A DNA stretch of 38,899 nucleotides from Actinomycetes bacterium (lineage in GTDB: Bacteria > Actinomycetota > Actinomycetes > Prado026), in the NCBI GenBank assembly GCA_036510875.1, contig DATCDE010000329.1, forward strand, positions 1 to 38,899, written 5' to 3'. Positions 1-12,837 of the stretch are shown here, piece after piece. The position numbers were made by a program, and so were the translations under genes. Position 1 is the first letter of the stretch; each line of letters begins with the position of its first letter. The notes under the pieces were generated by a model. The model was not told the origin of the DNA and made no database searches. It worked only from the letters and a program-made list of their open reading frames with translations.

Positions 1-1
1 C

Positions 2-286
2 TTCGGCATGAACCACGCCCCGGTGCAGTCGTTCTTCGGCAACGGGCTGTACTGGCAAGCCGTCGCCCTGGCCCACAACGTTGGGCTGTGGCTACGGACC
101 CTGGCCCTACCCGCGGAGTACCGGCGGGCCGGGGGCAAACGACTGCGGCTGGCGTTCCTCAACGTCCCCGCCAGGCTGGTCCGCCACGGCCGGCGTCTGC
201 ACCTGCGCTTCGGCGCCGCCTACCGACACCTGCAGGCCTTCATCACCGCGCTGAACCGACTACGAGCGCTACCCGCATCCGGCTGA
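2..286 (+). mobile_element. IS1380-type transposase, C-terminal end (partial)
   Basis: The frame is open from the left edge of the window and stops at 286, so only the last ~94 residues are present. The sequence has the pattern of the C-terminal part of IS1380-family DDE transposases: an aromatic, hydrophobic helix (WQAVALAHNVGLWLRTLALP), then a basic stretch with ARLVRHGRRLHLRF. The catalytic residues would lie upstream, outside the window. The element is oriented left to right, and its right end should follow shortly after the stop; a candidate terminal repeat is seen near 523-539. Family assignment rests on remembered family features and not on a search. An intact element cannot be judged from this end alone. 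Confidence 0.7.
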
Positions 287-540
287 CGAACGCAGCAGCC
301 GCAGGGCCTCGTCCCACCTCACCAGTCCGCCCACACCGCGATGCGACACGCCCACACACATCACTCACCGCGCCGCAAAGCTCCAAGACGCCAGCCCGAC
401 AGACTCCAAAACCGGCACGTCGGAGCCAGCGAAAAGATCAGTGACCGCGGCGACGCCGGCTCCGCATCGTCCGCGGTCCGCACACCCGCCCACGCCCCCC
501 ATTTCACGGCCGCAACGATTTGGATGAAAGATCAGGGTCA
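287..540. other. Non-coding stretch after the transposase, with possible IS right end
   Basis: No convincing gene is seen here. Codon use of the short open frames is unlike that of real genes in this window. Near its end (523-539) the sequence GATGAAAGATCAGGGTC resembles the ATGAAA-containing terminal inverted repeats of IS1380 elements, so the insertion sequence probably ends at about 540. The matching left repeat lies outside the window, so this cannot be confirmed. Confidence 0.35.
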
Positions 541-775
541 GAGGAGACTCGTCGGCGGCTTCGAGTAGGCGCACCGAAGTTCCAGGGCGCTCGGTCCGGC
601 AAGTTGTTGGGCGTGGCTCAAGGCAACCAGACGGACCGTGAGAAGGTGCTGCGATGAGGCCGCCGACGTCTATGAGTGGGCCGAGCAGGTTGATCTCGAG
701 GCCGCTACCGCAGATGGGGTGACCTCCAGTGTCGGCTGGATGTATGCCCCTTCGATGCCCGGCAGGAGGGCTTGA
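541..775 (+). pseudogene. C-terminal fragment of an unrecognised gene, frameshifted, next to IS end
   Basis: Two protein-like stretches lie head to tail in different frames. The first (about 571-654) reads GAPKFQGARSGKLLGVAQGN, then QTDREKVLR and a stop at 655-657. The second (about 656-775) reads EAADVYEWAEQVDLEAATAD, continues to YAPSMPGRRA, and stops at 773-775. Joined by a one-base shift they read as one continuous acidic and amphipathic C-terminus (EKVLR-EAADVYEW). The stop overlaps the aminotransferase ATG as TGATG, the usual spacing of coupled genes, so this looks like the remnant of an upstream operon partner cut off by the insertion sequence. I do not recognise the family. Confidence 0.4.
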
Positions 776-2130
776 TGGGCGCTCGGGTGGACCCGGGGAT
801 GGTCGCCGAACTGACGGCTCGGGAGAACGAGGCGTTCGTCGCCGCTCGACCCAAGGGGGCGCAGCTGTGGCGTCGCGCCGGTGAGTTGATGCCCAACGGG
901 GTGCCGATGAGTTGGCTGCGCACCTCCTACGAGCCGGTCCCGATGTTCGTCGCGGGCGGTGAAGGGTCGCGGTTCCGCGACGTCGACGGGCACGAGTACG
1001 TCGACTTCAACATCGCGGACATGTCGATGTTCACCGGGTATGCGCCGCCGGCCGTGGTTCGTGCGGTGTCGACCCGCGTGGCTGCCGGGTCGCAGTTCCT
1101 GCTGCCCAGCGAGGACTCGCTGTGGGTCGCCGAGGAACTCGGGCGTCGATACGGGCTGCCGATGTGGCAGTTCACGCTGTCCGCGACGGGGGCCAACACC
1201 GAGGCGCTGCGGGTGGCGCGGGTCCTCACCGGTCGGGACCAGGTGTTGTTCTTCGACGGCCACTACCACGGTCACTTCGACGAGTCGCTCGTTGAACAGG
1301 TCGACGGCCGGCTGCAGCCGGAGGAGGAAGGGCTCCCGGCGGACGTCGTCAACCGCACGGCCTTGATCCCGTTCAACGACGTCGACGCGTTGGCCGACGC
1401 CTTGGCCGGGGGTCGGGTCGCCGCTGTGGTGACCGAACCGGCGATGACGAACAACGTCGGCCTGGTGATGCCGGACCCAGGGTTCCACGAGCAGCTGCGT
1501 CACCTCACCCGCGTCGCCGGCACGGTCTTGGTCCTCGACGAGACCCACACCCAGGTGGTCGGTCCGGGTGGCCTTACGCGCCTGTGGGGTCTGGACCCCG
1601 ACATCGTGACGATCGGGAAGTCGATCGCCGCCGGCATCCCGCTGGGTGCCTACGGTATGACGCCGGAGGTGGCCGAGACGTTGCAGCGGCCGCTCGGGCG
1701 TGACGACCCGAGACCCGCGGTCGCCACCGGCGGCACGCTGTACGGCAACCCGCTGTCCATGGCGGCGGCACAGGCGGCCATGAGCGAGGTGCTGACCGAC
1801 GAGGCTTATGCCCGTTCGCAGGCGCTTGGCACCCGATTGGCCGACGGGCTGGAGCAGGCGGTGGCCACGGTCGAGCTGCCCTGGACCGTGCACCGCTTCT
1901 GGCCCCGCAGCGGTTACAGCTTCACCGCAGCGCCTCCGCGGAATGCGTCGGAGGCGCGCGCGGCGCTGGACGTGCCATTGCGTCGCCTCATGCGGGTCTA
2001 CCTGGCCAACCGGGGGGTCTGGGAGGCCATCGTGGGGGCCGGGCCGACCTGCTCGGTCGCCGCCGGTCCGGAAGACGTCGACAGCTACCTCACCGCCTTC
2101 GCCTCGCTGCTGACCGAGCTGACCGCCTGA
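775..2130 (+). CDS. Class III PLP aminotransferase, glutamate-1-semialdehyde aminomutase-like
   Basis: This 451-residue protein has the fold-type I pattern of class III aminotransferases: an N-terminal segment with DVDGHEYVDF, a PLP phosphate-binding SATGANTEAL near residue 137, a FFDGHYHGHFDE motif near 160, LDETHT with the cofactor Asp at 255, and the Schiff-base lysine at 282 in IGKSIAAG. Glutamate-1-semialdehyde aminomutase has the same layout, but DETHT replaces the usual DEV, so it is probably a paralogue with an unknown amino-acid or keto-acid substrate and not the haem enzyme. GGAGG at 765-769 lies five bases before the ATG and decides this start over the TTG three bases upstream. The ATG overlaps the stop of the upstream gene fragment. 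Its original operon appears to have been destroyed. Confidence 0.85.
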   Translation: MGARVDPGMVAELTARENEAFVAARPKGAQLWRRAGELMPNGVPMSWLRTSYEPVPMFVAGGEGSRFRDVDGHEYVDFNIADMSMFTGYAPPAVVRAVSTRVAAGSQFLLPSEDSLWVAEELGRRYGLPMWQFTLSATGANTEALRVARVLTGRDQVLFFDGHYHGHFDESLVEQVDGRLQPEEEGLPADVVNRTALIPFNDVDALADALAGGRVAAVVTEPAMTNNVGLVMPDPGFHEQLRHLTRVAGTVLVLDETHTQVVGPGGLTRLWGLDPDIVTIGKSIAAGIPLGAYGMTPEVAETLQRPLGRDDPRPAVATGGTLYGNPLSMAAAQAAMSEVLTDEAYARSQALGTRLADGLEQAVATVELPWTVHRFWPRSGYSFTAAPPRNASEARAALDVPLRRLMRVYLANRGVWEAIVGAGPTCSVAAGPEDVDSYLTAFASLLTELTA

Positions 2131-2276
2131 GCCGGCGCCGTTCGACGGCCGGTTTGACCGGTCCGTGGGGCGAGGGGCATTCCCAACTGTTGACCGACCC
2201 TCCCACCGTCGCGCGGCACGGCAGCGCTATCAGGCGACGATCCCCCAGGCACTCAACTGCGGCTCTCGGCTGATGT

Positions 2277-2453
2277 TCAGGCCGACCGAGCACGCTGGAG
2301 CGTCTGTGGTGCGCCGTGGCAGCGCTTCCATATTCTCTCGCTGCCACAGGTGCAGGGGCCGTTGCGGGCGCGCTTCGCGTCCGCGTCTGCGTAGGTGGCC
2401 ATGAGATCGGACGGTGCGCGGTCCTCCCGCAACAGCTGCGCCATCACTTCCAT
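2277..2453 (-). CDS. Small protein with C-terminal SEC-C zinc motif
   Basis: The C-terminus carries CTCGSERIWKRCH, an exact C-x-C-x8-C-H pattern of the SEC-C metal-binding motif found at the end of SecA and of many small bacterial proteins. The part before it (MEVMAQLLREDRAPSDL) is plausible coding sequence. The ATG at 2453 gives 58 residues, but the frame stays open upstream to a TTG at 2657, and ILSWETARRH just upstream also looks coding, so the true start is uncertain. It could also be the surviving tail of a larger gene. No clear ribosome binding site was found. It lies downstream of the membrane protein gene on the same strand. The function is unknown beyond likely zinc binding. Confidence 0.5.
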   Translation of the reverse strand: MEVMAQLLREDRAPSDLMATYADADAKRARNGPCTCGSERIWKRCHGAPQTLQRARSA

Positions 2454-2697
2454 CGGCGCCTGCGGTCGGCTGGTGTGACGCCGGGCGGTCTCCCAGCTGA
2501 GGATCGTCAAGCCTCCAGTTGGGACGGCACCGGTGCCGTGCCCGGTGGCAGTGCTGGTTGGGGACCGCTGGCTGGGTTCTGGCGTCGGTGGCCGTTGGTC
2601 AGTGGCGAGGCGTTGACGCAGCGCCGGCCCGGTCGCAGCTCTGCTGCATGTGGGCAACGCGCCGGAGCGGCGAGGGAGACTGCTGCGAGGAAGGTCG

Positions 2698-3378
2698 TCA
2701 GAGGATGTTCACGGCCCTGGCCACGACGAGTGCGACCAAGGACAAGGAGATCACTGACTCGGTGATCATCAAGAGTTTGGCCCACCGTCTGACCGCGGAC
2801 ACGTCGGTGGGGCTGAACGCGGTGGCGGTGTTGAACGACAAGGTCAGGTAGTCGGCGAACTGCGCGTACCAGCCGGGCGGGGCGAACTCGGTCAGGGTCA
2901 TCTCGGGGAACACGAACGCAGGGGTGGCTTCGGTCGACCCGGTCGCTCTGGCTGCCGCGCCGCCGCCGTCGAGGTCCCAGTACCACAGCGCGAACGCGAT
3001 GACGTTGGTGAGCCAGATGATGGCCCCGATGGCCAGCAGCTGTCCGGCGGTGTCGAACGACTTGTTCCGCAGGATGCCGAGGATCAGCCGGGTGGCGGCG
3101 AACGCGTTCACCGTGGTGATCAGGGCGATCATCAGCCCGGTCGTCACCCGCAGCCAGCGCCGCTGCCGGTCGATCCGCCCGGGGTCTCCGAGAATCAGAA
3201 CCAGCAGGAACGCGACCAGGAACAGCGGGTAGGCCCAGCGCGGGGACAGCCGAAAGCCCACCGGCAGCAGCTGGTGCAGCACCCCCGCCGCGAGGACGGC
3301 CACCGCCATCGGCCACCGCTGCTCACCGCGAGACCGGCCCGACCCAACGCTTTGGGGTGGCGATCCGTCGTCGGGCAC
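2698..3378 (-). CDS. DUF1345-like multi-pass membrane protein
   Basis: This is a 226-residue protein starting with GTG. Hydrophobic segments are visible at about residues 24-40, 48-64, 80-100, 112-132 and 203-224, giving at least five membrane helices. Near the C-terminus it has FADYLTLSFNTATAFSPTD followed by a final helix ending ARAVNIL, which is the layout of DUF1345 proteins and resembles the pore-region arrangement of two-helix ion channels. The protein is full length for this group (about 215-230 residues). The function is unknown; membrane transport or ion permeation is a guess from the fold-like pattern only. It stands alone between the SEC-C fragment and the divergent chimeric regulator/transporter gene. 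Confidence 0.7.
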   Translation of the reverse strand: MPDDGSPPQSVGSGRSRGEQRWPMAVAVLAAGVLHQLLPVGFRLSPRWAYPLFLVAFLLVLILGDPGRIDRQRRWLRVTTGLMIALITTVNAFAATRLILGILRNKSFDTAGQLLAIGAIIWLTNVIAFALWYWDLDGGGAAARATGSTEATPAFVFPEMTLTEFAPPGWYAQFADYLTLSFNTATAFSPTDVSAVRRWAKLLMITESVISLSLVALVVARAVNIL

Positions 3379-3574
3379 ACCGCATTGTCGCGCGCCGACT
3401 TCCGCAGCGGCGGCCGTTCGGCGAGGCCGGCCGGCTCGCAGGCGTGGGCGGACACGCCGGCCGCGCCGATGCCGTGGTGGTGGCTGTCACCCCTCGGAGT
3501 CGACCTGCCGCAGCGGTCACCGGGCTGTCCGTGGCCCCTTCGGACGACATCCCTCGGTCTAGGCTCAGAGTTGA

Positions 3575-5698
3575 GTGGGGTTGGGGAGGTCGCGTGGTCG
3601 CGGAGGCGGAGCCGGGCGCCGGGCTGGGGGCGCCTGGCGGGCTCGGTGTGGGACTATTAGGGCCAAGCTGGCCCCGAACCGGTTGCCTCGGGGGGTGGTG
3701 TGTCGACCCCGGCTGCTCGACGAGCTCCGCCAAGGTCGTGATCGGGCGCTCACTTTGGTGTCTGCCCCGGCGGGGTTCGGCAAGACCACCTTGCTCACGG
3801 AATGGGTCGAGACTGACGCGGCGACTCGTTTCGCCTGGGTGACGCTTGACCCGGGTGACGTTGAGCCGGTTCGGTTGTGGACCCATGTCATCGCTGCGAT
3901 CGCTCAGCGCGAGAGCGCGGTCGGTGGTCGCTCGCTGGAGGCCCTGCGGTCCAACCCGGACCGGGTCGTCGATGCCGCACTGCCCGTCCTCATCGACGAG
4001 CTGGCAGAAGGGGCCGGAGACCTGGTCGTCATCCTCGATGACTTCCACCGGGCAGAGACCTCAGAGATCAACGCGCAGATCACCGTGTTTCTCCGCTACC
4101 GCCCCTCGCGCGTGCAGCTCGTCATCTCCACCCGCTCCGACCCCGCCCTGGGCGTGGCCAGGCTGCGTGCGTCCGGAGACCTGGTCGAAGTGCGTGCCGC
4201 ATCGCTGCGTTTCGACGACGCGGAGCTCTCCCGCTTCTTCGATGGGAGCGGTGTCACCGGACTGTCGCCGCTCGACCAGCACCGGCTGGCCGAGCGGACC
4301 GGCGGGTGGCCCGCGCCGTTGCGGCTCGCGGCGCTGCTCATGCCTGAGAAGGACCGCGAGCCCTTCATCGAGTCGTTCACCGGGGGCAGCCGTCAAGTTG
4401 TGGACTGCCTCACGCGAGAAGTCCTCGATCTCCTCGAGCCACGGACCCGAGACTTCCTGCTCCAAGTCTCGGTCCTGGACTGGTTCAACGGCGCCTTGTG
4501 TGACGCGGTTCAGGAACGCACCGTTGTCGCGCTGCTCGCCGACCAGGTTTTCGGCCTGACCGCGCTGGTCAGCGGGTTGTCGTTCATCGTGGCCTTCGGC
4601 CCTGGTCAAGGCCATCACCAACTTCTTCGCCGCACGCTGTCCGACCGGTACGGCCGCAAACCCGTCCTGGTGGCCGGCTGGCTGGTCGCCATCCCCGTGC
4701 CGCTGCTGCTGATCTGGGCGCCCAGCTGGGGCTGGGTCGTGTTCGCCAACGTGCTGCTCGGGGTCAACCAGGGCCTGACCTGGTCCACCACCGTCATCAT
4801 GAAGATCGACTTGGTCGGCCCAGCCCGCCGCGGGCGGGCCATGGGGTTCAACGAGGCGGCCGGCTACGGCGCGCTGGCGCTGACCGCGATGGCCACCGGC
4901 TACCTCGCCCAGACCTACGGGCTGCGGCCCACCCCGTTCTACCTGGGGATAGCCTTCGTGGCCCTCGGGCTCGGCCTGTCGGCGTTCGCGGTCAAGGAGA
5001 CCCGCGATCACGCCCGGTTCGAGGCCGCCAACCACGTCAACCGGCACGACCACCTGCACGGCGGGCGCACCACGCGGCAGATCTTCTGGCTCACTAGCGT
5101 CAAGGAACGCGCGCTGTCCGCGGCCAGCCGGGCCGGTCTGGTCAACAACCTCAACGACGGCCTGGCCTGGGGCGTGTTTCCGATCCTGTTCGCCAGTCGT
5201 GGCCTGTCGATCACCCAGATCGGCGTCCTGGCCGGGATCTACCCCGCGATGTGGGGGATCGGCCAGCTGCTCGCCGGGGGGCTGTCCGACCGCCTCGGCC
5301 GCAAGTGGTTGATCGCCGTCGGGATGTGGGTGCAGGCCGTCGGCATCGCTGTCGTCGCGCTCGGGACGACGTTCGCCGTGTGGGCCGTAGCCGCTGCCGT
5401 CATCGGCGCCGGCACTGCCATGGTCTACCCCACCCTGCTCGCCGCGATCGGTGACGTCGCCCACCCGGCTTGGCGGGCCCGCTCAGTCGGGGTCTACCGG
5501 CTGTGGCGCGACAGCGGCTTCGCCGTCGGCGCCCTGCTCGTCGGCATCGTCGCTGACGCCACCACCCTGGTCGCCGCGATCTGGGTCGTCGCCGCCATCA
5601 CCGCCGCCTCCGGCGTGGTCGTCGCGATCCGCATGTTCGAGACGCTCGGCCACCACGCGTCAACCACGCCGGGCGTGGGGCAGGTACCGGCGGGCTGA
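3575..5698 (+). CDS. Chimera: MalT/LuxR-type STAND ATPase fused to an N-truncated MFS transporter
   Basis: One open frame of 707 codons joins two unrelated families. Residues ~28-312 match the ATPase part of MalT/LuxR-type regulators: KLAPNRLPRG start region, Walker A APAGFGKTT (65-73), Walker B VVILDDFH (151-158), then ERTGGWPAPLRLAAL. The TPR and DNA-binding HTH that should follow are missing. From about residue 313 (ERTVVALLADQVFGLTALVSG) the protein is an MFS transporter with the loop motif LSDRYGRKP and a second DRLGRK in the C-half, but without its start and first helix. Inside the MFS part, residues 343-353 are read in a shifted frame (4601-4633); the neighbouring frame gives the expected LVKAITNFFA. 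The GTG start at 3575 is only a best guess, since there is no clear Shine-Dalgarno. It is probably a deletion fusion and may be non-functional. Confidence 0.75.
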   Translation: MGLGRSRGRGGGAGRRAGGAWRARCGTIRAKLAPNRLPRGVVCRPRLLDELRQGRDRALTLVSAPAGFGKTTLLTEWVETDAATRFAWVTLDPGDVEPVRLWTHVIAAIAQRESAVGGRSLEALRSNPDRVVDAALPVLIDELAEGAGDLVVILDDFHRAETSEINAQITVFLRYRPSRVQLVISTRSDPALGVARLRASGDLVEVRAASLRFDDAELSRFFDGSGVTGLSPLDQHRLAERTGGWPAPLRLAALLMPEKDREPFIESFTGGSRQVVDCLTREVLDLLEPRTRDFLLQVSVLDWFNGALCDAVQERTVVALLADQVFGLTALVSGLSFIVAFGPGQGHHQLLRRTLSDRYGRKPVLVAGWLVAIPVPLLLIWAPSWGWVVFANVLLGVNQGLTWSTTVIMKIDLVGPARRGRAMGFNEAAGYGALALTAMATGYLAQTYGLRPTPFYLGIAFVALGLGLSAFAVKETRDHARFEAANHVNRHDHLHGGRTTRQIFWLTSVKERALSAASRAGLVNNLNDGLAWGVFPILFASRGLSITQIGVLAGIYPAMWGIGQLLAGGLSDRLGRKWLIAVGMWVQAVGIAVVALGTTFAVWAVAAAVIGAGTAMVYPTLLAAIGDVAHPAWRARSVGVYRLWRDSGFAVGALLVGIVADATTLVAAIWVVAAITAASGVVVAIRMFETLGHHASTTPGVGQVPAG

Positions 5699-5709
5699 GC
5701 CCGCGTCGG

Positions 5710-6897
5710 TCAGGCTCGGCCGCCGGTGCCGGCCCGCGCAGCCTCGGCCAGGACTGCCGCGGCCCGTTTGACGTCGGCCGGCTCGGTCCAGCGGCCGGCC
5801 GAGAGCCGGATGGCGGACATGGCGTCGTCCGGATCCACCCCCATGCCGACGAGGACGCCGGAGGGTTCGTCCCGTCCGGCGTGGCAGGCCGATCCGGTGG
5901 AGGCGGAAATGTCCGTTGTCGCGGCCAACAGCGGGAGGGCCTGGACTCCGGTGATGCGCAGGTTGAGCGTGTTGGGCAGCCGCCGGGTGGGATGACCGTG
6001 GATGTGCACGCGGCCAGGGATCAGCTCCTCCAACCAGTCGGACAGCCCGTCGCGCAGGCCAGCGAGCCGAGTCGACTCGCCCGCGGCCAGGCCCTGGCCG
6101 GCCAGGTCTGCTGCCTCGCCGAGGGCGACCGCGACGGCGACGCTCTCGGTCCGTGCGCGCAGGCCGCGTTCTTGACCACCGCCGCCGACAAGGGGATGCA
6201 GGGAGACGCCGTGTCCGACGTAGAGAGCGGCGATGCCCTTGGGCGCGTACATCTTGTGCCCGACGACGGTGAGCAGGTCGACGCCGAGGTCGTCGACGTC
6301 GACAGGGACCTTGCCGACCGACTGCGCGGCGTCGCTGTGCAGCAGGACGCCGTGGCTGCAGGTGATCGCGGCGATGTCCGCAATGCGCTGAAGGGTGCCC
6401 GTCTCGTTGTTGGCGTGCATCACTGAGACGAGGACCGTGTCCACGGTCAGGGCTGCCGCGACGTCGTCGGGGTCGACGACACCGTGACGGTGCACGGGCA
6501 GGTAGGTGACCTCGACTCCATACCATCGCTGCAGCTCCCGGCAGGCAGCCAGGACCGCGGGGTGCTCGGTCACCTGGGTGACCAAGTGAACGTGGTCGCG
6601 GTCCGTGGCCAAGGCGGCAAGCACGGCCCCGCGGATGGCCAGCGCGTCGGCCTCGGACCCGCTGCCCGTGAAGACGATCTCCTCACCGGACGCCCCGATC
6701 AGGGCGGCCACCTGCCGGCGGGCCCGCGTCAGCGCATCGCGCGGTGCCTGGCCGTAGGCATGGGCACTGGAGGGGCTGCCGAACTCGGCCGTCAGGAACG
6801 GCAACATCGCTGCGACGACGCGCGGGTCGACCGGGGTGGTTGCGTTGTAGTCCAGGTAGATGGGCCGCCCGCTGAGGCCCGGATGTTCTTGAGTCAT
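5710..6897 (-). CDS. Cysteine desulfurase, NifS/IscS class
   Basis: The 395-residue protein moves sulfur from L-cysteine to an active-site cysteine as persulfide, releasing alanine. Visible landmarks are the N-terminal YLDYNATTPVDP, His112 (TEHPA, stacks on PLP), Asp189 (HSDAAQ), the PLP lysine 215 in VGHKMYAPKG, and the catalytic Cys338 in SASTGSACHAG. The SSTGSAC-type loop with a long insertion is that of the NifS/IscS group. I chose the ATG at 6897, which precedes the conserved start; the frame remains open upstream to 7119, but that extension is unlike the family. No scaffold or suf/isc genes are adjacent. It diverges from a nucleoside phosphorylase across 270 bases, suggesting a role in a specialised sulfur transfer and not general Fe-S assembly, but this is inference. 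Confidence 0.88.
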   Translation of the reverse strand: MTQEHPGLSGRPIYLDYNATTPVDPRVVAAMLPFLTAEFGSPSSAHAYGQAPRDALTRARRQVAALIGASGEEIVFTGSGSEADALAIRGAVLAALATDRDHVHLVTQVTEHPAVLAACRELQRWYGVEVTYLPVHRHGVVDPDDVAAALTVDTVLVSVMHANNETGTLQRIADIAAITCSHGVLLHSDAAQSVGKVPVDVDDLGVDLLTVVGHKMYAPKGIAALYVGHGVSLHPLVGGGGQERGLRARTESVAVAVALGEAADLAGQGLAAGESTRLAGLRDGLSDWLEELIPGRVHIHGHPTRRLPNTLNLRITGVQALPLLAATTDISASTGSACHAGRDEPSGVLVGMGVDPDDAMSAIRLSAGRWTEPADVKRAAAVLAEAARAGTGGRA

Positions 6898-7167
6898 GCC
6901 ATCAACCCGATTCGTCGGGACGCAGTCAAGCCAACCAGCACCCTTCCGGCGACCAGCGGCCGGCCGGTCGACTCCTCCATGGTGGACTTCCTCGCCCACT
7001 CGTGGCGAACCGACCGAGCGCGACACAGGCGATCCGGTCGGGTTCAGCACGCGGTGCGTGGCGCCTGCAGTCCTCCGGATGACCCTGGGGTCGCCGACTC
7101 GCCTGATCATCGCCAGCACGGGAGCGAGCCACCCGGGTGGGCATCCCTTCCTGGAAGGATGTGGTGC

Positions 7168-7953
7168 ATGGAACTGCCGCTACTTGAGGACGACTTGGAC
7201 TCCCGGTCCATGATCGAACCCAGCCAGGTCGTCCGACCGATCGACGCGTCGCGGCCGATGGTGTTGTGCTTCTTCCGCGAGGTGATGGATGCGCTAGCCC
7301 TGCGGCCCGACTCCCGCACGGTTCAGGTCCTCGACTGGGCGCACGGCGGGCACCCCGTCTACGAGATCGACCACCGGGGCCGCAGCCTGGCTGTCATGCA
7401 CCCCGGGGTCGGCGCGCCACTCGCGGGGGCCCTGCTCGAGGAGGCGATCGCGCTGGGCTACCGCAGCTTCGTCGCGGTTGGTGGTGCCGGTGCCCTGGTC
7501 CCTGACCTGGTGATGGGCCACGCGGTCGTGGTGGAAAGTGCGCTGCGAGACGAAGGAACCTCCTTCCACTACCTGCCCCCCAGCCGCACCGTTGACGCCG
7601 ACGTCGAGGGCGTGGCTGCCCTGGAGGCCACGCTCCGCGACGCGGAGGTCCCCTTCGTCACAGGACGAACGTGGACGACCGACGCTCCCTACCGGGAGAC
7701 CACCAGCCGGGTTCGGCGGCGTACCGCCGAAGGCTGTTTGACGGTTGAGATGGAAGCGTCCGCATTCATCGCGGTGGCGCGGTATCGGGGAGTGGCATTC
7801 GCCCAGGTGCTGTACGCAGGGGACTCGCTGGCTGGACCCGAATGGGATCACCGGGACTGGACCACAGCCACCACGGTCCGGGAACGGATCTTCTGGATCG
7901 CCGCCGACGCATGTCTCCAGCTCGACTCCGGCCCTACCGGACGGGCGTCCTGA
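7168..7953 (+). CDS. Nucleoside phosphorylase (PNP/UDP family)
   Basis: This 261-residue protein has the pattern of the trimeric/hexameric purine and uridine phosphorylase family: a GVGAPLAGALLEEAIALGYR segment binding phosphate, AVGGAGAL, a central substrate region, and the signature LTVEMEASAFIAVARYRG, in which the Glu of VEMEA binds the ribose. It would cleave an N-glycosidic bond with phosphate to give a base and ribose-1-phosphate; the base preference is not clear from the sequence. GGAAGG at 7153-7158 lies nine bases before the ATG at 7168, which decides against the ATG at 7159. It sits between a cysteine desulfurase and the arsenic genes. A link to arsenical nucleoside metabolism is possible but unsupported here. 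Confidence 0.82.
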   Translation: MELPLLEDDLDSRSMIEPSQVVRPIDASRPMVLCFFREVMDALALRPDSRTVQVLDWAHGGHPVYEIDHRGRSLAVMHPGVGAPLAGALLEEAIALGYRSFVAVGGAGALVPDLVMGHAVVVESALRDEGTSFHYLPPSRTVDADVEGVAALEATLRDAEVPFVTGRTWTTDAPYRETTSRVRRRTAEGCLTVEMEASAFIAVARYRGVAFAQVLYAGDSLAGPEWDHRDWTTATTVRERIFWIAADACLQLDSGPTGRAS

Positions 7954-7997
7954 AGCCGACGCGGAGGAAGACCCACGCGTTGTTCGCCGCGTCGGGG

Positions 7998-8351
7998 TCA
8001 GTGCAGGACAGCGGCGATCTCGTCGAGCCGGCCGGGGACGACGGAGTACCAGGCCCAGGTGCCTCGCTTCTCCCGGGCGAGGAGTCCGGCCTCGGTGAGC
8101 ACCTTGAGGTGGTGGCTCACGGTGGGCTGGGAGAGCCCGAGCGGCCCGGTCAGGTCGCAGACGCAGGCTTCGCCGGCGTCGCTGGCCCTGAGCAGAGCCA
8201 GCAGCTGAAGCCGGGCCGGGTCGGCGACGGCCTTGAGCAGGCGGGCCAGGTCCTCCGCGGTGCCACGGTCCAGCGGGGTGGTGAGCCCAGTGGGGCAGCA
8301 GACCGGTCCCTCGGGCCCGGCCGCGGTCAGCACCGGCTCGGCTACCACCAT
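7998..8351 (-). CDS. arsR: ArsR/SmtB-family arsenic-responsive repressor
   Basis: The 117-residue winged-helix repressor binds operator DNA and releases it on binding As(III) or a similar thiophilic ion. The helix-turn-helix is GLSQPTVSHHLKVLTEAGL (72-90) and the sensor is CVCDL (Cys63, Cys65) at the start of the alpha-3 helix; a Cys18-Cys19 pair in the N-terminal arm can complete a sulfur site, as in actinobacterial ArsR. The ATG at 8351 is chosen because GGAGAG lies four bases upstream; the frame is open further upstream to 8474, but that extension runs across both operators. It is transcribed divergently from arsI over a 97-base regulatory region, so it probably controls both genes and itself. 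Confidence 0.92.
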   Translation of the reverse strand: MVVAEPVLTAAGPEGPVCCPTGLTTPLDRGTAEDLARLLKAVADPARLQLLALLRASDAGEACVCDLTGPLGLSQPTVSHHLKVLTEAGLLAREKRGTWAWYSVVPGRLDEIAAVLH

Positions 8352-8374
8352 CCGACTCTCCGTTCGAGAGAAGA

Positions 8375-8392
8375 CATTGACAAGTGTCGATG
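8375..8392. promoter_or_regulatory. ArsR operator 1 with arsI -35 element
   Basis: The sequence CATTGACAAGTGTCGATG is a near-perfect dyad (7 of 8 positions pair). On the + strand it contains TTGACA at 8377-8382, a consensus -35; CAGACT at 8400-8405 is a fair -10 after 17 bases, putting transcription of arsI at about 8412. Repressor bound here would cover the -35. The second site downstream has the same pattern in the opposite direction. Confidence 0.6.
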
Positions 8393-8412
8393 CAGTTGCC
8401 AGACTCCAGCCA

Positions 8413-8430
8413 CATCGACCATCGTCAATG
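8413..8430. promoter_or_regulatory. ArsR operator 2 (inverted copy), arsR side
   Basis: On the minus strand this reads CATTGACGATGGTCGATG, identical to operator 1 outside the central four bases (CATTGAC-N4-GTCGATG). Its TTGACG faces arsR and may be that gene's -35, although the -10 there is weak. The centres of the two sites are 38 bp apart. Confidence 0.55.
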
Positions 8431-8448
8431 TAGATCGGAGTGGTGGCC

Positions 8449-8913
8449 ATGTCCAGGGTGCAGTTGGCGCTCAACGTGTCCGACCTGGAGGCCTCGGTGG
8501 CGTTCTACTCGACGCTGTTCGGGGTCCAGCCGCACAAGCGGCGTCCCGGGTACGCCAACTTCGCCATCGCCGAGCCGCCGCTGAAGCTGGTGCTCATCGA
8601 GGCTCCGGTCGACGCGCGGGGTCACGGCGTGGCTGGCGCGCTGAACCACTTGGGGGTCGAGGTCGAGACGGTCGATGAGGTCACGGCCGGCGCAGCTCGG
8701 CTGAGTGCGGCCGGCCTGGCGACCTTCGATGAGAGCGACACCACCTGCTGCTACGCGCTGCAGGACAAGGTGTGGGTGCACGACCCGGCCGGGGCCCCGT
8801 GGGAGATCTACACGGTCAAGGACGACAATCCGGCCAACCCGAGGCCGGCCTCGGCCTCGCTGCCACTGCTGGAGACGGTGTCGGCGGCTGGTGGGTGCTG
8901 CGGTGCCGGCTGA
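8449..8913 (+). CDS. arsI: ArsI/CadI-type vicinal-oxygen-chelate dioxygenase (C-As lyase)
   Basis: The 154-residue protein belongs to the ArsI/CadI group. ArsI uses Fe(II) and O2 to cleave the carbon-arsenic bond of methylarsenite. Visible here are the VOC start MSRVQLALNVSDLEASVAFY, a likely metal triad Gln5, His67 (NHLGVEVE) and Glu119 (PWEIYTV), and the vicinal Cys100-Cys101 pair in DTTCCYALQDKVWV that binds trivalent arsenic. A second CC pair closes the C-terminus (150-151). CadI proteins, named for cadmium induction, share these residues, so the substrate is inferred from the arsenic neighbours. GGAG at 8436-8439 supports the ATG at 8449 over the upstream GTGs. It is divergent from arsR and preceded by two operators. 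Confidence 0.88.
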   Translation: MSRVQLALNVSDLEASVAFYSTLFGVQPHKRRPGYANFAIAEPPLKLVLIEAPVDARGHGVAGALNHLGVEVETVDEVTAGAARLSAAGLATFDESDTTCCYALQDKVWVHDPAGAPWEIYTVKDDNPANPRPASASLPLLETVSAAGGCCGAG

Positions 8914-9158
8914 CGACACGGACCGGCTGCCCACCGGGGCGGAGTCTCCGGTCGGGGGTGTGGTCGAGGACCTGGCGTCCCGCTTCGACGGGTGTTCAGC
9001 CGGGAGATCACCGGGTTCCTTCCGGTGCCGTCGGCTGATGGCGGCCGCGTGGTTGCACGAGCTGTCCGCGCTCCCCGGGCAAGCGCTACCTGGACTGGGA
9101 TCAGCGGGTCGTTGGACTCCTGGCCGAGCTGCTGCCCGACAGGGTAGGAATGCACTGA
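8905..9158 (+). pseudogene. Shredded arsenate reductase (ArsC) remnant
   Basis: Three pieces of one protein occur in the right order but with most of the gene missing. The first (about 8960-9005) is VVEDLASRFDG-VFSRE, after correcting one missing base, and matches the N-terminal three-helix domain of long actinobacterial ArsC. The second (about 9035-9070) is LMAAAWLHELS, the helix following the CX5R loop. The third (about 9075-9158) is PGKRYLDWD followed by VVGLLAELLPD, the C-terminal part. The catalytic cysteine loop and central sheet are absent and the frames differ, so this cannot encode an active enzyme. It lies between arsI and the intact arsC, suggesting replacement of an older reductase. 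Confidence 0.6.
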
Positions 9159-9195
9159 CCCCTGTGACTGCCCCCCGAGACGAAAGCGATCACGC

Positions 9196-9606
9196 GTGAG
9201 CGACCAGCCGTCCGTCCTGTTCGTCTGCGTGCACAACGCCGGCCGGTCCCAGATGGCCGCGGCCTCCCTGACCCATCTGGCGGGTGACCGGGTGGAGGTG
9301 CGCCCGGCCGGCTCGGCGCCGGCCGACACCGTCAACCCGGCCGTCGTCCAGGCGCTGCTGGAGGAGGGCATCGACAACTCCACGGAGACGCCGAAGGTGC
9401 TCTCCACCGAGGCGGTCAAGGAGTCCGACGTTGTGATCACCATGGGCTGCGGGGATGTTTGCCCGGTCTTCCCGGGCAAGCGCTACGAGGACTGGGTCCT
9501 CGACGACCCGGCTGGCCAGGGTGTCGACGCATTCCGGCCGATCCGAGACGAGATCCGCCGTCGCATCGAGGCGCTGATCGCCGAGATCGCCCCTGTCGCG
9601 GGCTGA
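9196..9606 (+). CDS. arsC: Arsenate reductase ArsC, LMW-phosphatase fold
   Basis: The 136-residue enzyme reduces As(V) to As(III) for export. The N-terminal LFVCVHNAGRSQM holds the CX5R anion-binding loop (Cys11, Arg17). MGCGDVCPVFPGKRYEDW supplies Cys85 and Cys89 for the disulfide relay, and LDDPAG (Asp103/Asp104-Pro105) the general acid. Actinobacterial members of this shape use thioredoxin or mycothiol; which one cannot be told from the sequence. This is the short form without the extra N-terminal helical domain. The start is GTG with only a weak AG-rich ribosome site. Fifteen bases separate it from the pump gene, so the two are co-transcribed, and the arsenite product is passed to that pump. 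Confidence 0.93.
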   Translation: MSDQPSVLFVCVHNAGRSQMAAASLTHLAGDRVEVRPAGSAPADTVNPAVVQALLEEGIDNSTETPKVLSTEAVKESDVVITMGCGDVCPVFPGKRYEDWVLDDPAGQGVDAFRPIRDEIRRRIEALIAEIAPVAG

Positions 9607-9621
9607 GCACGGGGACGACGG

Positions 9622-10713
9622 GTGACCACGCACGCGCACGACGCCGACGAAGCGGCGGTCATCGGCCGGCTGTCGACGCTGGACCGGTTCCTGCCGGTGT
9701 GGATCCTGGCGGCGATGGCGGCCGGGCTGCTGCTCGGCCGGTTGGTCCCATCCGTTCAGTCCTGGCTGGACGCGGTCAAGGTCGGCCAGACGTCGCTGCC
9801 GATCGCTCTGGGCCTGCTGCTCATGATGTACCCGGTGCTGGCCAAGGTCCGCTACGAGGAGATGGGCCATGTCACCGGCGACCGGCGGCTGCTGTGGCTG
9901 TCGGTGGTCCTGAACTGGGTCATCGGCCCGGCGCTGATGTTCACCCTGGCCTGGGTGTTCCTCTACGACCAGCCGGAGTTCCGCACCGGGCTCATCGTCA
10001 TCGGCCTGGCCCGGTGCATCGCCATGGTGCTGATCTGGAACGACCTGGCCTGCGGCGACCGGGAGGCGGCTGCGCTGCTGGTCGCGATCAACTCGGTGTT
10101 CCAGATCGTCGCCTACGCGCTGCTCGGCACCTTCTACCTGAAGATCCTGCCCGGCTGGCTCGGCCTGCCGACGCAGGACGTGCACTTCTCCACCTGGGAG
10201 ATCACCAAGGCGGTGCTCATCTTCTTGGGCATCCCGCTGGTCGCCGGCTACCTCACCCGCAGGATCGGCCTGCGCACCAAAGGCAGGACCTGGTACGAGG
10301 AGAGGTTCATCCCGTTCATCAGCCCGTTCGCGCTGTACGGGCTGCTGTTCACTATCGTGGTGATGTTCGCCTTGCAGGGTGAGGCGATCACGTCCGACCC
10401 GGTGTCCGTGGTGCAGATCGCAGTGCCGCTGCTGGCCTACTTCGCCGTGATGTGGGGGGTCTCGTTCTTCCTCGGGACTCGCGCCCGCCTCGGCTACCCC
10501 AAGACCGCCACTGTGGCCTTCACCGCCGCCGGCAACAACTTCGAGCTGGCGATCGCTGTCAGCATCGGCGTCTGGGGCGTCACCTCCGGCCAGGCGCTAG
10601 CGGGGGTCATCGGCCCCCTCATCGAGGTCCCTGCCCTGGTCGGTCTCGTCTACGTATCCCTGTGGCTGCGTCGCAAGTACTTCACCCCTCAGCCCACCCC
10701 TGCCACCCCCTGA
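9622..10713 (+). CDS. acr3: ACR3-family arsenite efflux permease
   Basis: This 363-residue inner-membrane carrier has ten evident hydrophobic segments, the usual number for ACR3. The conserved cysteine essential for As(III) transport is in GLARCIAMVLIWNDLACGD (Cys132, with another at 144), and the conserved glutamate is in GNNFELAIA (Glu308). ACR3 proteins extrude arsenite with the proton gradient and need no ATPase. The start is GTG at 9622, with GGGG seven bases upstream. It lies directly after arsC. The N-terminal tail carries His and Asp residues (HAHDADE), ordinary for this family in actinobacteria. Confidence in the family is high. Confidence 0.95.
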   Translation: MTTHAHDADEAAVIGRLSTLDRFLPVWILAAMAAGLLLGRLVPSVQSWLDAVKVGQTSLPIALGLLLMMYPVLAKVRYEEMGHVTGDRRLLWLSVVLNWVIGPALMFTLAWVFLYDQPEFRTGLIVIGLARCIAMVLIWNDLACGDREAAALLVAINSVFQIVAYALLGTFYLKILPGWLGLPTQDVHFSTWEITKAVLIFLGIPLVAGYLTRRIGLRTKGRTWYEERFIPFISPFALYGLLFTIVVMFALQGEAITSDPVSVVQIAVPLLAYFAVMWGVSFFLGTRARLGYPKTATVAFTAAGNNFELAIAVSIGVWGVTSGQALAGVIGPLIEVPALVGLVYVSLWLRRKYFTPQPTPATP

Positions 10714-11039
10714 GCGCGGAGCAGCACGCCGGCCGACCTCTCCGCTGACCCTGGTCGATGGGGTCACGGCCATGACCGGGGCTACCCCTCCCGTGCACGG
10801 CTGCTGCGCACCGAACTAGCCGGGCTGCAGCCCCCGGAGCACCGTAAGCGGCGTGGTGTCGACGGTGTGGCGACCAAGCCGGCCCTTCTCGATCACGCCG
10901 GTGGCCTCATGGGGTCTGCTAGATCAAGAACCCTTGGAATACGACATCACGGTGCCTCTGCGTGTCGGAGACCAGATAGGGACTTTGGGCCTTTGAAATC
11001 AGCGTTCCTGTGATGAACCCCCAGCCCTGGGACCGGGGA
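10714..11039. other. Intergenic stretch between acr3 and second arsR
   Basis: No complete gene is seen. On the minus strand, 10816 to about 10920 reads like the end of a protein (HEATGVIEKGRLGRH, then TPLTVLRGLQPG and a stop), and on the plus strand 10900-10999 reads LEYDITVPLRVGDQIGTLGL before a stop. Each lacks a start or a recognisable family, so I treat both as possible decayed fragments. No strong terminator is obvious after acr3. Confidence 0.3.
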
Positions 11040-11075
11040 TTGACCCGGGTCTCCATTCGACGTATTCTTCAAATG
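11040..11075 (+). promoter_or_regulatory. Promoter of the second arsR, leaderless transcript predicted
   Basis: TTGACC (11040-11045) and TATTCT (11063-11068) are separated by exactly 17 bases. The expected start of transcription, seven bases after the -10, falls on the GTG at 11075. No Shine-Dalgarno precedes this codon, consistent with a leaderless mRNA. Confidence 0.65.
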
Positions 11076-11096
11076 TGCCTGCTTCAAATGTGACTG
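11067..11096 (+). repeat. 15-bp tandem duplication spanning the arsR start codon
   Basis: CTTCAAATGTGCCTG (11067-11081) is followed at once by CTTCAAATGTGACTG (11082-11096), with 14 of 15 bases identical. Each copy holds a GTG in the arsR frame (11075 and 11090), so the duplication keeps the frame and gives two possible start codons. Confidence 0.8.
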
Positions 11097-11413
11097 AACT
11101 GATTGCCACCGCTTCGGCGGAGGCCACGGCGGCTCGGTTGGACGCGTCGGTGGCGCTGCTGCAGGCGGTGGCGGACCCGATCCGGTGGACCGTGCTGCAG
11201 CGGCTGGCCTCGAGTGCTGCCTGTGTGTGCACCCTGCAGGAGCACGTGCCGATCGCGGCGAACCTGCTCAGCTACCACCTCAAGGTGCTGCGGGACGCCG
11301 GCCTGGTGACGACGAGCCGCCGGGGTCGCTGGATCGACTACGCGCTCGCCGACGACGCGCTGGACCGGTTGCGGGCAGCCCTGCCCGGTGGGGGGAGCCT
11401 CGGGTCGGCGTGA
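11075..11413 (+). CDS. Second ArsR/SmtB-family repressor
   Basis: The 112-residue winged-helix repressor has AVADPIRWTVLQRL, a CVC sensor (Cys50, Cys52) in AACVCTLQEHV, and a recognition helix LLSYHLKVLRDAGL (64-77) followed by the beta-wing SRRGRWIDY. The CxC pair is the known As(III)/Sb(III)/Cd(II) type of site. GTG at 11075 or GTG at 11090 could be used; the promoter favours the first. Its last codon overlaps the start of the permease (GTGA), so it is the first gene of a three-gene operon with the permease and thioredoxin-like protein. It lacks the N-terminal CC pair seen in the first ArsR, so its ligand may differ. Confidence 0.9.
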   Translation: MPASNVTELIATASAEATAARLDASVALLQAVADPIRWTVLQRLASSAACVCTLQEHVPIAANLLSYHLKVLRDAGLVTTSRRGRWIDYALADDALDRLRAALPGGGSLGSA

Positions 11414-12459
11414 GCATCGTCGAGCGGACCCCCACCTCCAAGCGTGGACAGCGGCTCACGCTGCTGGGCGCCGCGCTGGCGTGGGTGGCGGTGTACCGGG
11501 TGAACCGTTGGCTGTGGGACCGACTGCTCTACGACGGGTTCGGGATGGACCCGTCGGCGCGGTTGACCGAGACCGTCCACTTCTTCCTCTACGACACGGT
11601 CAAGATCGGCCTGCTGTTGGTCGGGATCATCTTCGTGGTCACGGTGCTGCGCTCGTACATGAGCGTGGAGCGCACCCGCGCCCTGCTGGGCGGCAAGCGG
11701 GAGGGCCTGGGCAACGTGATGGCCGCGGGGCTCGGTGTGATCACGCCGTTCTGCTCGTGCAGCGCGGTGCCGGCGTTCATCGGGTTCGTCGCCGCCGGAG
11801 TGCCCATCGGGGTGACCCTGAGCTTTCTGATCGCCAGCCCGCTGGTCAACGAGATCGCCATCGGCATGCTGTTCTCCCTCTTCGGCTGGCAGGTGACCGC
11901 GATCTACATCGGCGCGGGCCTGGTCATCGCGATCGTCGCCGGCTGGGTGCTGGGGCGGATCGGGGTGCAGCGCTGGGTCGAGCCGTTCGTGTTCGAGACC
12001 AAGCTCGGCGGCCAGGTCATCGACAGCACGCTCGGTCTCACCTTCGAGCAGCGACTGCAGATGGGCGCCGAGGAGGCCGCGACCATCCTGCGCAAGATCT
12101 GGCCGTACCTCCTCGTGGGCATCGGCCTGGGCGCGGTCATCCACGGATGGGCGCCGGCCGACCTCTTCACCAGGTACGCCGGTCCCGGGAACGTCTTCGG
12201 GGTGCTGGTCGCCGTCGGCATCGGTGTCCCGCTGTACTCCAACGCCGCCGGGATCATGCCGCTGGTGCAGGCCCTGCACGAGAAGGGCCTGCCCATGGGC
12301 ACCCTGCTCGCGTTCATGATGGCCGTCGTCGCGCTGTCGCTGCCGGAGATGATCCTGCTGCGCCGCGTCCTGAAGCCCCAGCTGCTCGCCGCGTTCATCG
12401 GCGTCGTCGGCACCGGCATCGTCGCCGTCGGCTACCTGTTCAACTTCCTGCTCGCCTGA
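11410..12459 (+). CDS. ArsP-like permease (UPF0718/DUF318)
   Basis: The 349-residue membrane protein has about eight hydrophobic segments and the two family hallmarks: TPFCSCSAVPAFIGF with Cys115 and Cys117, and IGVPLYSNAAGIMPLVQAL in the second half. Some members (ArsP) export trivalent methyl- and phenylarsenicals; others with the same motif have unknown cargo. A soluble loop lies at about residues 185-230. The GTG at 11410 overlaps the arsR stop by four bases, so translation is coupled. With the neighbouring CxxC protein this is the common arsR-permease-thioredoxin set of high-GC bacteria. Export of organoarsenical or free As(III) is inference from family and context. Confidence 0.88.
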   Translation: MSIVERTPTSKRGQRLTLLGAALAWVAVYRVNRWLWDRLLYDGFGMDPSARLTETVHFFLYDTVKIGLLLVGIIFVVTVLRSYMSVERTRALLGGKREGLGNVMAAGLGVITPFCSCSAVPAFIGFVAAGVPIGVTLSFLIASPLVNEIAIGMLFSLFGWQVTAIYIGAGLVIAIVAGWVLGRIGVQRWVEPFVFETKLGGQVIDSTLGLTFEQRLQMGAEEAATILRKIWPYLLVGIGLGAVIHGWAPADLFTRYAGPGNVFGVLVAVGIGVPLYSNAAGIMPLVQALHEKGLPMGTLLAFMMAVVALSLPEMILLRRVLKPQLLAAFIGVVGTGIVAVGYLFNFLLA

Positions 12460-12485
12460 CCTGCCAACCCGAAGGAACCACCGTC

Positions 12486-12728
12486 GTGATCATCAAGGTG
12501 CTCGGCCCCGGCTGCAACAACTGCAAGACCCTCGAACGCCTCACCCGCGAGGCCGTCGACGCCCTCGGCCTCGACGCCACGATCGAGAAGGTCGAGGACT
12601 ACCCGACCATCGTCGGCTACGGGGTCATGTCCACGCCGGCGCTCGTCATCGACGAGCAGGTGGTCCTGTCCGGACGCGTACCCAGGGCCGCCGAGGTCAA
12701 GGACCTGCTCGCCGCTCGAGCAGGCTGA
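12486..12728 (+). CDS. Small thioredoxin-fold protein with CxxC
   Basis: The 80-residue protein has the start VIIKVLGPGCNNCKTLERL with an active-site CNNC (about residues 10-13), a cis-proline-type loop MSTPALVID, and a C-terminal helix, matching the "redox-active disulfide protein 2" group. AAGGAA at 12472-12477 lies eight bases before the GTG start. It follows the permease by 26 bases and probably hands reduced metal(loid) or reducing power to it. The protein is full length for this minimal family. Confidence 0.9.
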   Translation: MIIKVLGPGCNNCKTLERLTREAVDALGLDATIEKVEDYPTIVGYGVMSTPALVIDEQVVLSGRVPRAAEVKDLLAARAG

Positions 12729-12837
12729 ATGGCAGCCTTCCCACCGCTGCGGCCGCGGCCGACCCGAGGTCCGACGGCGACCGTCTCCTGCAGGTGAGGA
12801 CGCTGGGGCCGTCGCGCCCCGATGGGCCCGACTCGGG

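Follow-up and report, generated by a model that had tools for sequence, protein, structure and literature searches.

The open reading frame at 3575–5698 (+) looks like an ordinary broken gene or a misassembled join rather than a new working protein. It links the start of a MalT-type regulator gene to the larger part of an MFS carrier gene. The reading we prefer, to which we give an even chance, is that a real and recent rearrangement brought two gene fragments together into a non-functional unit, a pseudogene. The window, i.e. the whole stretch of DNA analysed, comprises all 38,899 nucleotides of contig C329 (DATCDE010000329.1; GC about 70%) from the draft genome of an Actinomycetes bacterium (GCA_036510875.1). 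As the earlier note had described, a single frame of 707 codons (707 aa) joins two gene parts, and both profile homologies bear this out. The features are listed in Table 1.

Table 1. Features at and around the open reading frame, in window coordinates.
Feature	Position	Strand	Description	Evidence
Small membrane protein gene, weak DUF1345	2698..3378	-	upstream of the regulator half, divergent	
5' portion of MalT/LuxR-family (LAL-type) regulator gene	3575..4510	+	NTPase module; homology from ~3656	profile match and alignments
Junction	4505..4514	+	MalT-family '...LCDAV(TG)' fused in frame with MFS-family '(G)QERTV'	alignments
MFS carrier gene without 5' end	4511..5698	+	~30–45 codons missing, TM1 included	profile match and alignments
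Stretch out of phase in the ORF	4601..4633	+	ORF frame PGQGHHQLLRR; other frame is the family motif LVKAITNFFA	
NifS/IscS-like cysteine desulfurase	5710..6870	-	convergent with MFS, 11 bp past the carrier stop	

The first half of the product matched the MalT model NF003420 (E 4.8e-54; ORF residues about 28–315, profile positions 3–291 of 903). Like MalT/LAL-type LuxR regulators, it has an NTPase (STAND) module of about 285 residues in which Walker A (APAGFGKTT) and Walker B (VVILDDFH) are both intact, and it is 44–47% identical to full-length actinobacterial MalT/LAL regulators. Among the latter is a paralog encoded on contig C143 of the same draft, in which the same module is followed by TPR_MalT (PF17874) and GerE (PF00196). 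Unlike these regulators, the ORF half stops at 'LCDAV': no profile match to the TPR (TPR_MalT) region or to the C-terminal LuxR/GerE helix-turn-helix was obtained in the 707-aa product, in agreement with the ATPase module devoid of TPR and HTH that had been noticed at the outset.

The second half scored 137 bits with the MFS_1 profile (cut-off 33.4), with a match from ORF residue 313, and its best relatives are 69–71% identical to it. It resembles the MFS_1 carriers of an ArsR-rhodanese/MBL-rhodanese/NifS cluster, and shares 65–73% identity with actinobacterial members over the part that begins at the SDRYGRKP motif. All close relatives carry an additional N-terminal stretch, LGLRxNxAQFSLLVxVNALVGGMxGQERTV, which contains TM1; homology of the carrier half begins after this helix, at the CAG codon of QERT (4511), in all of them. 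The helix set of the carrier half is thus incomplete and the loss of its first helix, already noticed, is real at the level of the printed sequence. On the other side, the regulator match stops at about 4508, at the codon GTT of 'LCDAV'. The halves, searched and aligned with full-length relatives as had been advised, therefore belong to two separate families that meet at 4508/4511, which sharpens the former estimate of a join at about 4510. No repeats were found at the junction within 2100–7300 (the surrounding 5.2 kb), and a promoter/terminator scan of 3300–6000 gave no candidate.

Inside the carrier, the claim that 4601–4633 is read out of phase and that the frame is then restored was also upheld. 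The frame from 4602 gives LVKAITNFFAA, which aligns with (L/I/A)(V/T)KAxTN(F/Y)FAG of the carrier relatives, and 10 of its 11 codons are GC-ending, whereas the ORF frame has 4 such codons in 11; the displaced frame is therefore still typical coding DNA. In the fetched loci, KAxxNxxAGxxSDR occurs 71 times, and GHHQLLR is limited to the window's own copies. Both slips are one-base run-length changes. In the product, the end of TM2 is exchanged for the polar PGQGHHQLLRR, and motif A between TM2 and TM3, G-x-L-(S/A)-D-R-x-G-R-K, reads RRTLSDRYGRK in the ORF frame, with arginine in place of the conserved glycine. Judged from its sequence, the carrier as printed is almost certainly dead, since TM1, the end of TM2 and the glycine of motif A are all gone. 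The divergence of 4511–4600 was considered as a mark of decay or errors and rejected; the mean identity, 0.56 versus 0.61 for pairs of relatives, is unremarkable.

That one frame stays open through both events had been called odd, and this point did not hold. When 33-nt stretches of either half or of the carrier relatives are shifted by one base, 76–97% of positions give no stop codon, and the chance of an in-frame join is 1/3, so that the open frame needs no selection. Since joins and slips often keep the frame open in GC-rich drafts, an unbroken frame, however long, counts for little there as a sign of a working gene and calls for caution: automatic annotation would name 3575–5698 one 707-aa 'MFS transporter'.

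Comparison with relatives covered 59 carrier loci from GTDB genomes, with flanks of up to 5 kb, and a MalT-type gene was present in none of them. No MFS relative in the material compared (59 GTDB loci, 103 plasmid records and about 34 class genomes) showed the fusion. Throughout 395 class genomes, carrier matches started at query residue 281 at the earliest and regulator matches ended by residue 325; none of the 103 matching plasmid records reached 80% coverage of the ORF, and a literature search on such an architecture gave no match among the titles listed. By these comparisons, the fusion is unique to contig C329 within everything searched. Relatives with both the same fused architecture and the same residues 343–353 would, according to the earlier note, have refuted its observation; the fusion did not appear in the loci, class genomes and plasmids searched, and the residues PGQGHHQLLRR in no relative among the fetched loci. 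The relatives searched included two further genomes of the family of the source organism and zero of its genus, so that there is no close strain to confirm the junction.

The surroundings of the carrier are altered as well. In relatives an MBL-fold-rhodanese gene precedes it, as does an ArsR-rhodanese regulator, in an arrangement that is often divergent, and in three genomes (G016, G055, G021) it is followed by a NifS-type cysteine desulfurase on the same strand. The window carrier also adjoins a NifS gene. It differs from the cluster members in that TM1 is gone, TM2/motif A contains a slip, both upstream partners are missing and NifS is convergent; the regulator half stands where MBL-rhodanese and ArsR-rhodanese sit in relatives. 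Gene order indicates that the carrier has been separated from its customary surroundings, upstream as well as downstream. Elsewhere in the draft (95% complete), searches for an MBL-rhodanese orthologue, an ArsR-rhodanese orthologue, the missing N-terminus of the carrier and the missing C-terminal half of the regulator each returned paralogs or domain-level matches only. None of these matches was an orphan partner of the kind that would establish a swap.

The closest named relatives of the intact cluster are persulfide detoxification operons of the BigR-Blh type. The models for BigR (NF040642) and Blh (NF040641) matched the relatives' regulator and hydrolase weakly, with scores that fall far short of the curated cut-offs. 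Unlike in BigR-Blh operons, the relatives' regulator is fused to rhodanese, and the window has neither gene. The intact cluster thus resembles persulfide-handling operons and may have such a function. Several genomes (L031, L034, L124, L133, L141) have an ArsR-rhodanese regulator on the downstream side of the carrier, which indicates that the cluster is often reshuffled. The contig begins, at 1–542, with a DDE_Tnp_1_4 (IS1380-like) transposase cut down to its 3' end.

What is directly observed is both homologies and their abrupt boundary, the out-of-phase stretch, the lack of the upstream partners and the altered gene order, and a real rearrangement could connect these as follows. A plastic genomic island, marked by an IS remnant, arsenic genes and a flipped NifS, would have undergone a deletion or inversion that cut the MalT-type regulator after its NTPase module, with loss of the C-terminal half, and the MFS gene before its second helix, with loss of the first helix and of the upstream partners ArsR-rhodanese and MBL-rhodanese. 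The two stumps would then have been joined in frame by chance, and the 33-nt out-of-phase stretch would be further damage in a dead carrier or would predate its death. This reading is favoured by the sharpness of the homology boundary and by the order of genes, which is disturbed on both sides given the convergent NifS; that neither the partners nor the two missing gene ends turned up in the rest of the draft is what a real deletion would predict. Further support comes from the IS fragment, as contig C281 of the same draft opens with a stretch 97% identical to the adjoining 183 bp (360–542), and from the remainder of the contig, which by codon usage tiles as intact genes. In a composition test for a foreign left arm, the tetranucleotides of 1–4510 did not stand out (7 of 46 chunks are at least as distant), which is also consistent with a real rearrangement. 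The junction would then exist in the living genome and its product would probably be non-functional; as neither half shows other damage (stops are absent and GC3 is high), the pseudogene would have to be very young. Against a real rearrangement stand the three lesions within about 125 bp, with slips of the one-base run-length kind, which suit a local consensus fault, and the source itself, a 377-contig draft, the junction being known here from one assembly alone.

The same clustering is an argument for an artefact, which we rate close behind the decaying gene and nearly as likely, at somewhat under an even chance. The contig would have been misjoined near 4510 by a chimeric read or an assembler path, the adjacent 125 bp or so would be low-quality sequence with two one-base run-length errors, and the true genes would be separate and intact. 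The draft (4.05 Mb) is fragmented with 3.3% contamination, the other 38.7 kb or so have clean frames, the fusion recurs in no relative seen, and the displaced frame still reads as sound coding sequence with its motif intact, as expected of non-biological slips. However, searches of the bin's remaining contigs did not find the missing halves and operon partners, the left arm is like the genome in composition, with sequence next to its IS fragment occurring again in the bin, and the junction has no repeat around it. The earlier note had asked for a check of raw reads at the slips and had offered a decaying gene kept open by chance or an actual fusion, without naming an artefact; the former stands as viable and the latter is not supported. 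In a genuine functional fusion, the NTPase sensor module, tethered to the carrier, would form with it a regulator of a new kind at the membrane or a gated transporter. The single open frame, the preserved Walker motifs and the presence of most of the carrier speak for such a fusion, but it is seen in no relative, the carrier has the lesions described above, and the module is cut ahead of the TPR and DNA-binding parts that the C143 paralog has. We consider it very unlikely, because a carrier so damaged and a regulator without sensing and DNA-binding parts would hardly work; harder still to credit is a real, expressed STAND-NTPase/MFS fusion whose soluble signalling module replaces the first carrier helix to give a membrane-anchored regulator or gated carrier. 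Least probable of all is that the carrier acquired the out-of-phase stretch long ago, as a compensated frameshift that is functional and independent of the fusion. The exact restoration of the frame and the good conservation of the remaining carrier would fit, but the shifted residues occur in no relative in the fetched loci, a conserved motif is destroyed, and the fully coding-like codon usage of the displaced frame suggests that the slip is young.

If the rearrangement is real, the ORF would be a further instance of a gene decaying within a mobile sulfur/arsenic island. The arsenic gene set of the window (7998–12728) comprises an ArsR-type regulator (Rv2640c-like), an ArsI/CadI VOC enzyme, a low-molecular-weight phosphatase/ArsC-like protein, an ACR3 arsenite efflux protein, an ArsP-type permease and a thioredoxin-like domain. 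In one of the compared genomes (G031; L099, about 7682–12825), the carrier and its ArsR-rhodanese neighbour occur twice in tandem. One of these carrier copies is present as fragments only and is another case of decay in the same carrier family.
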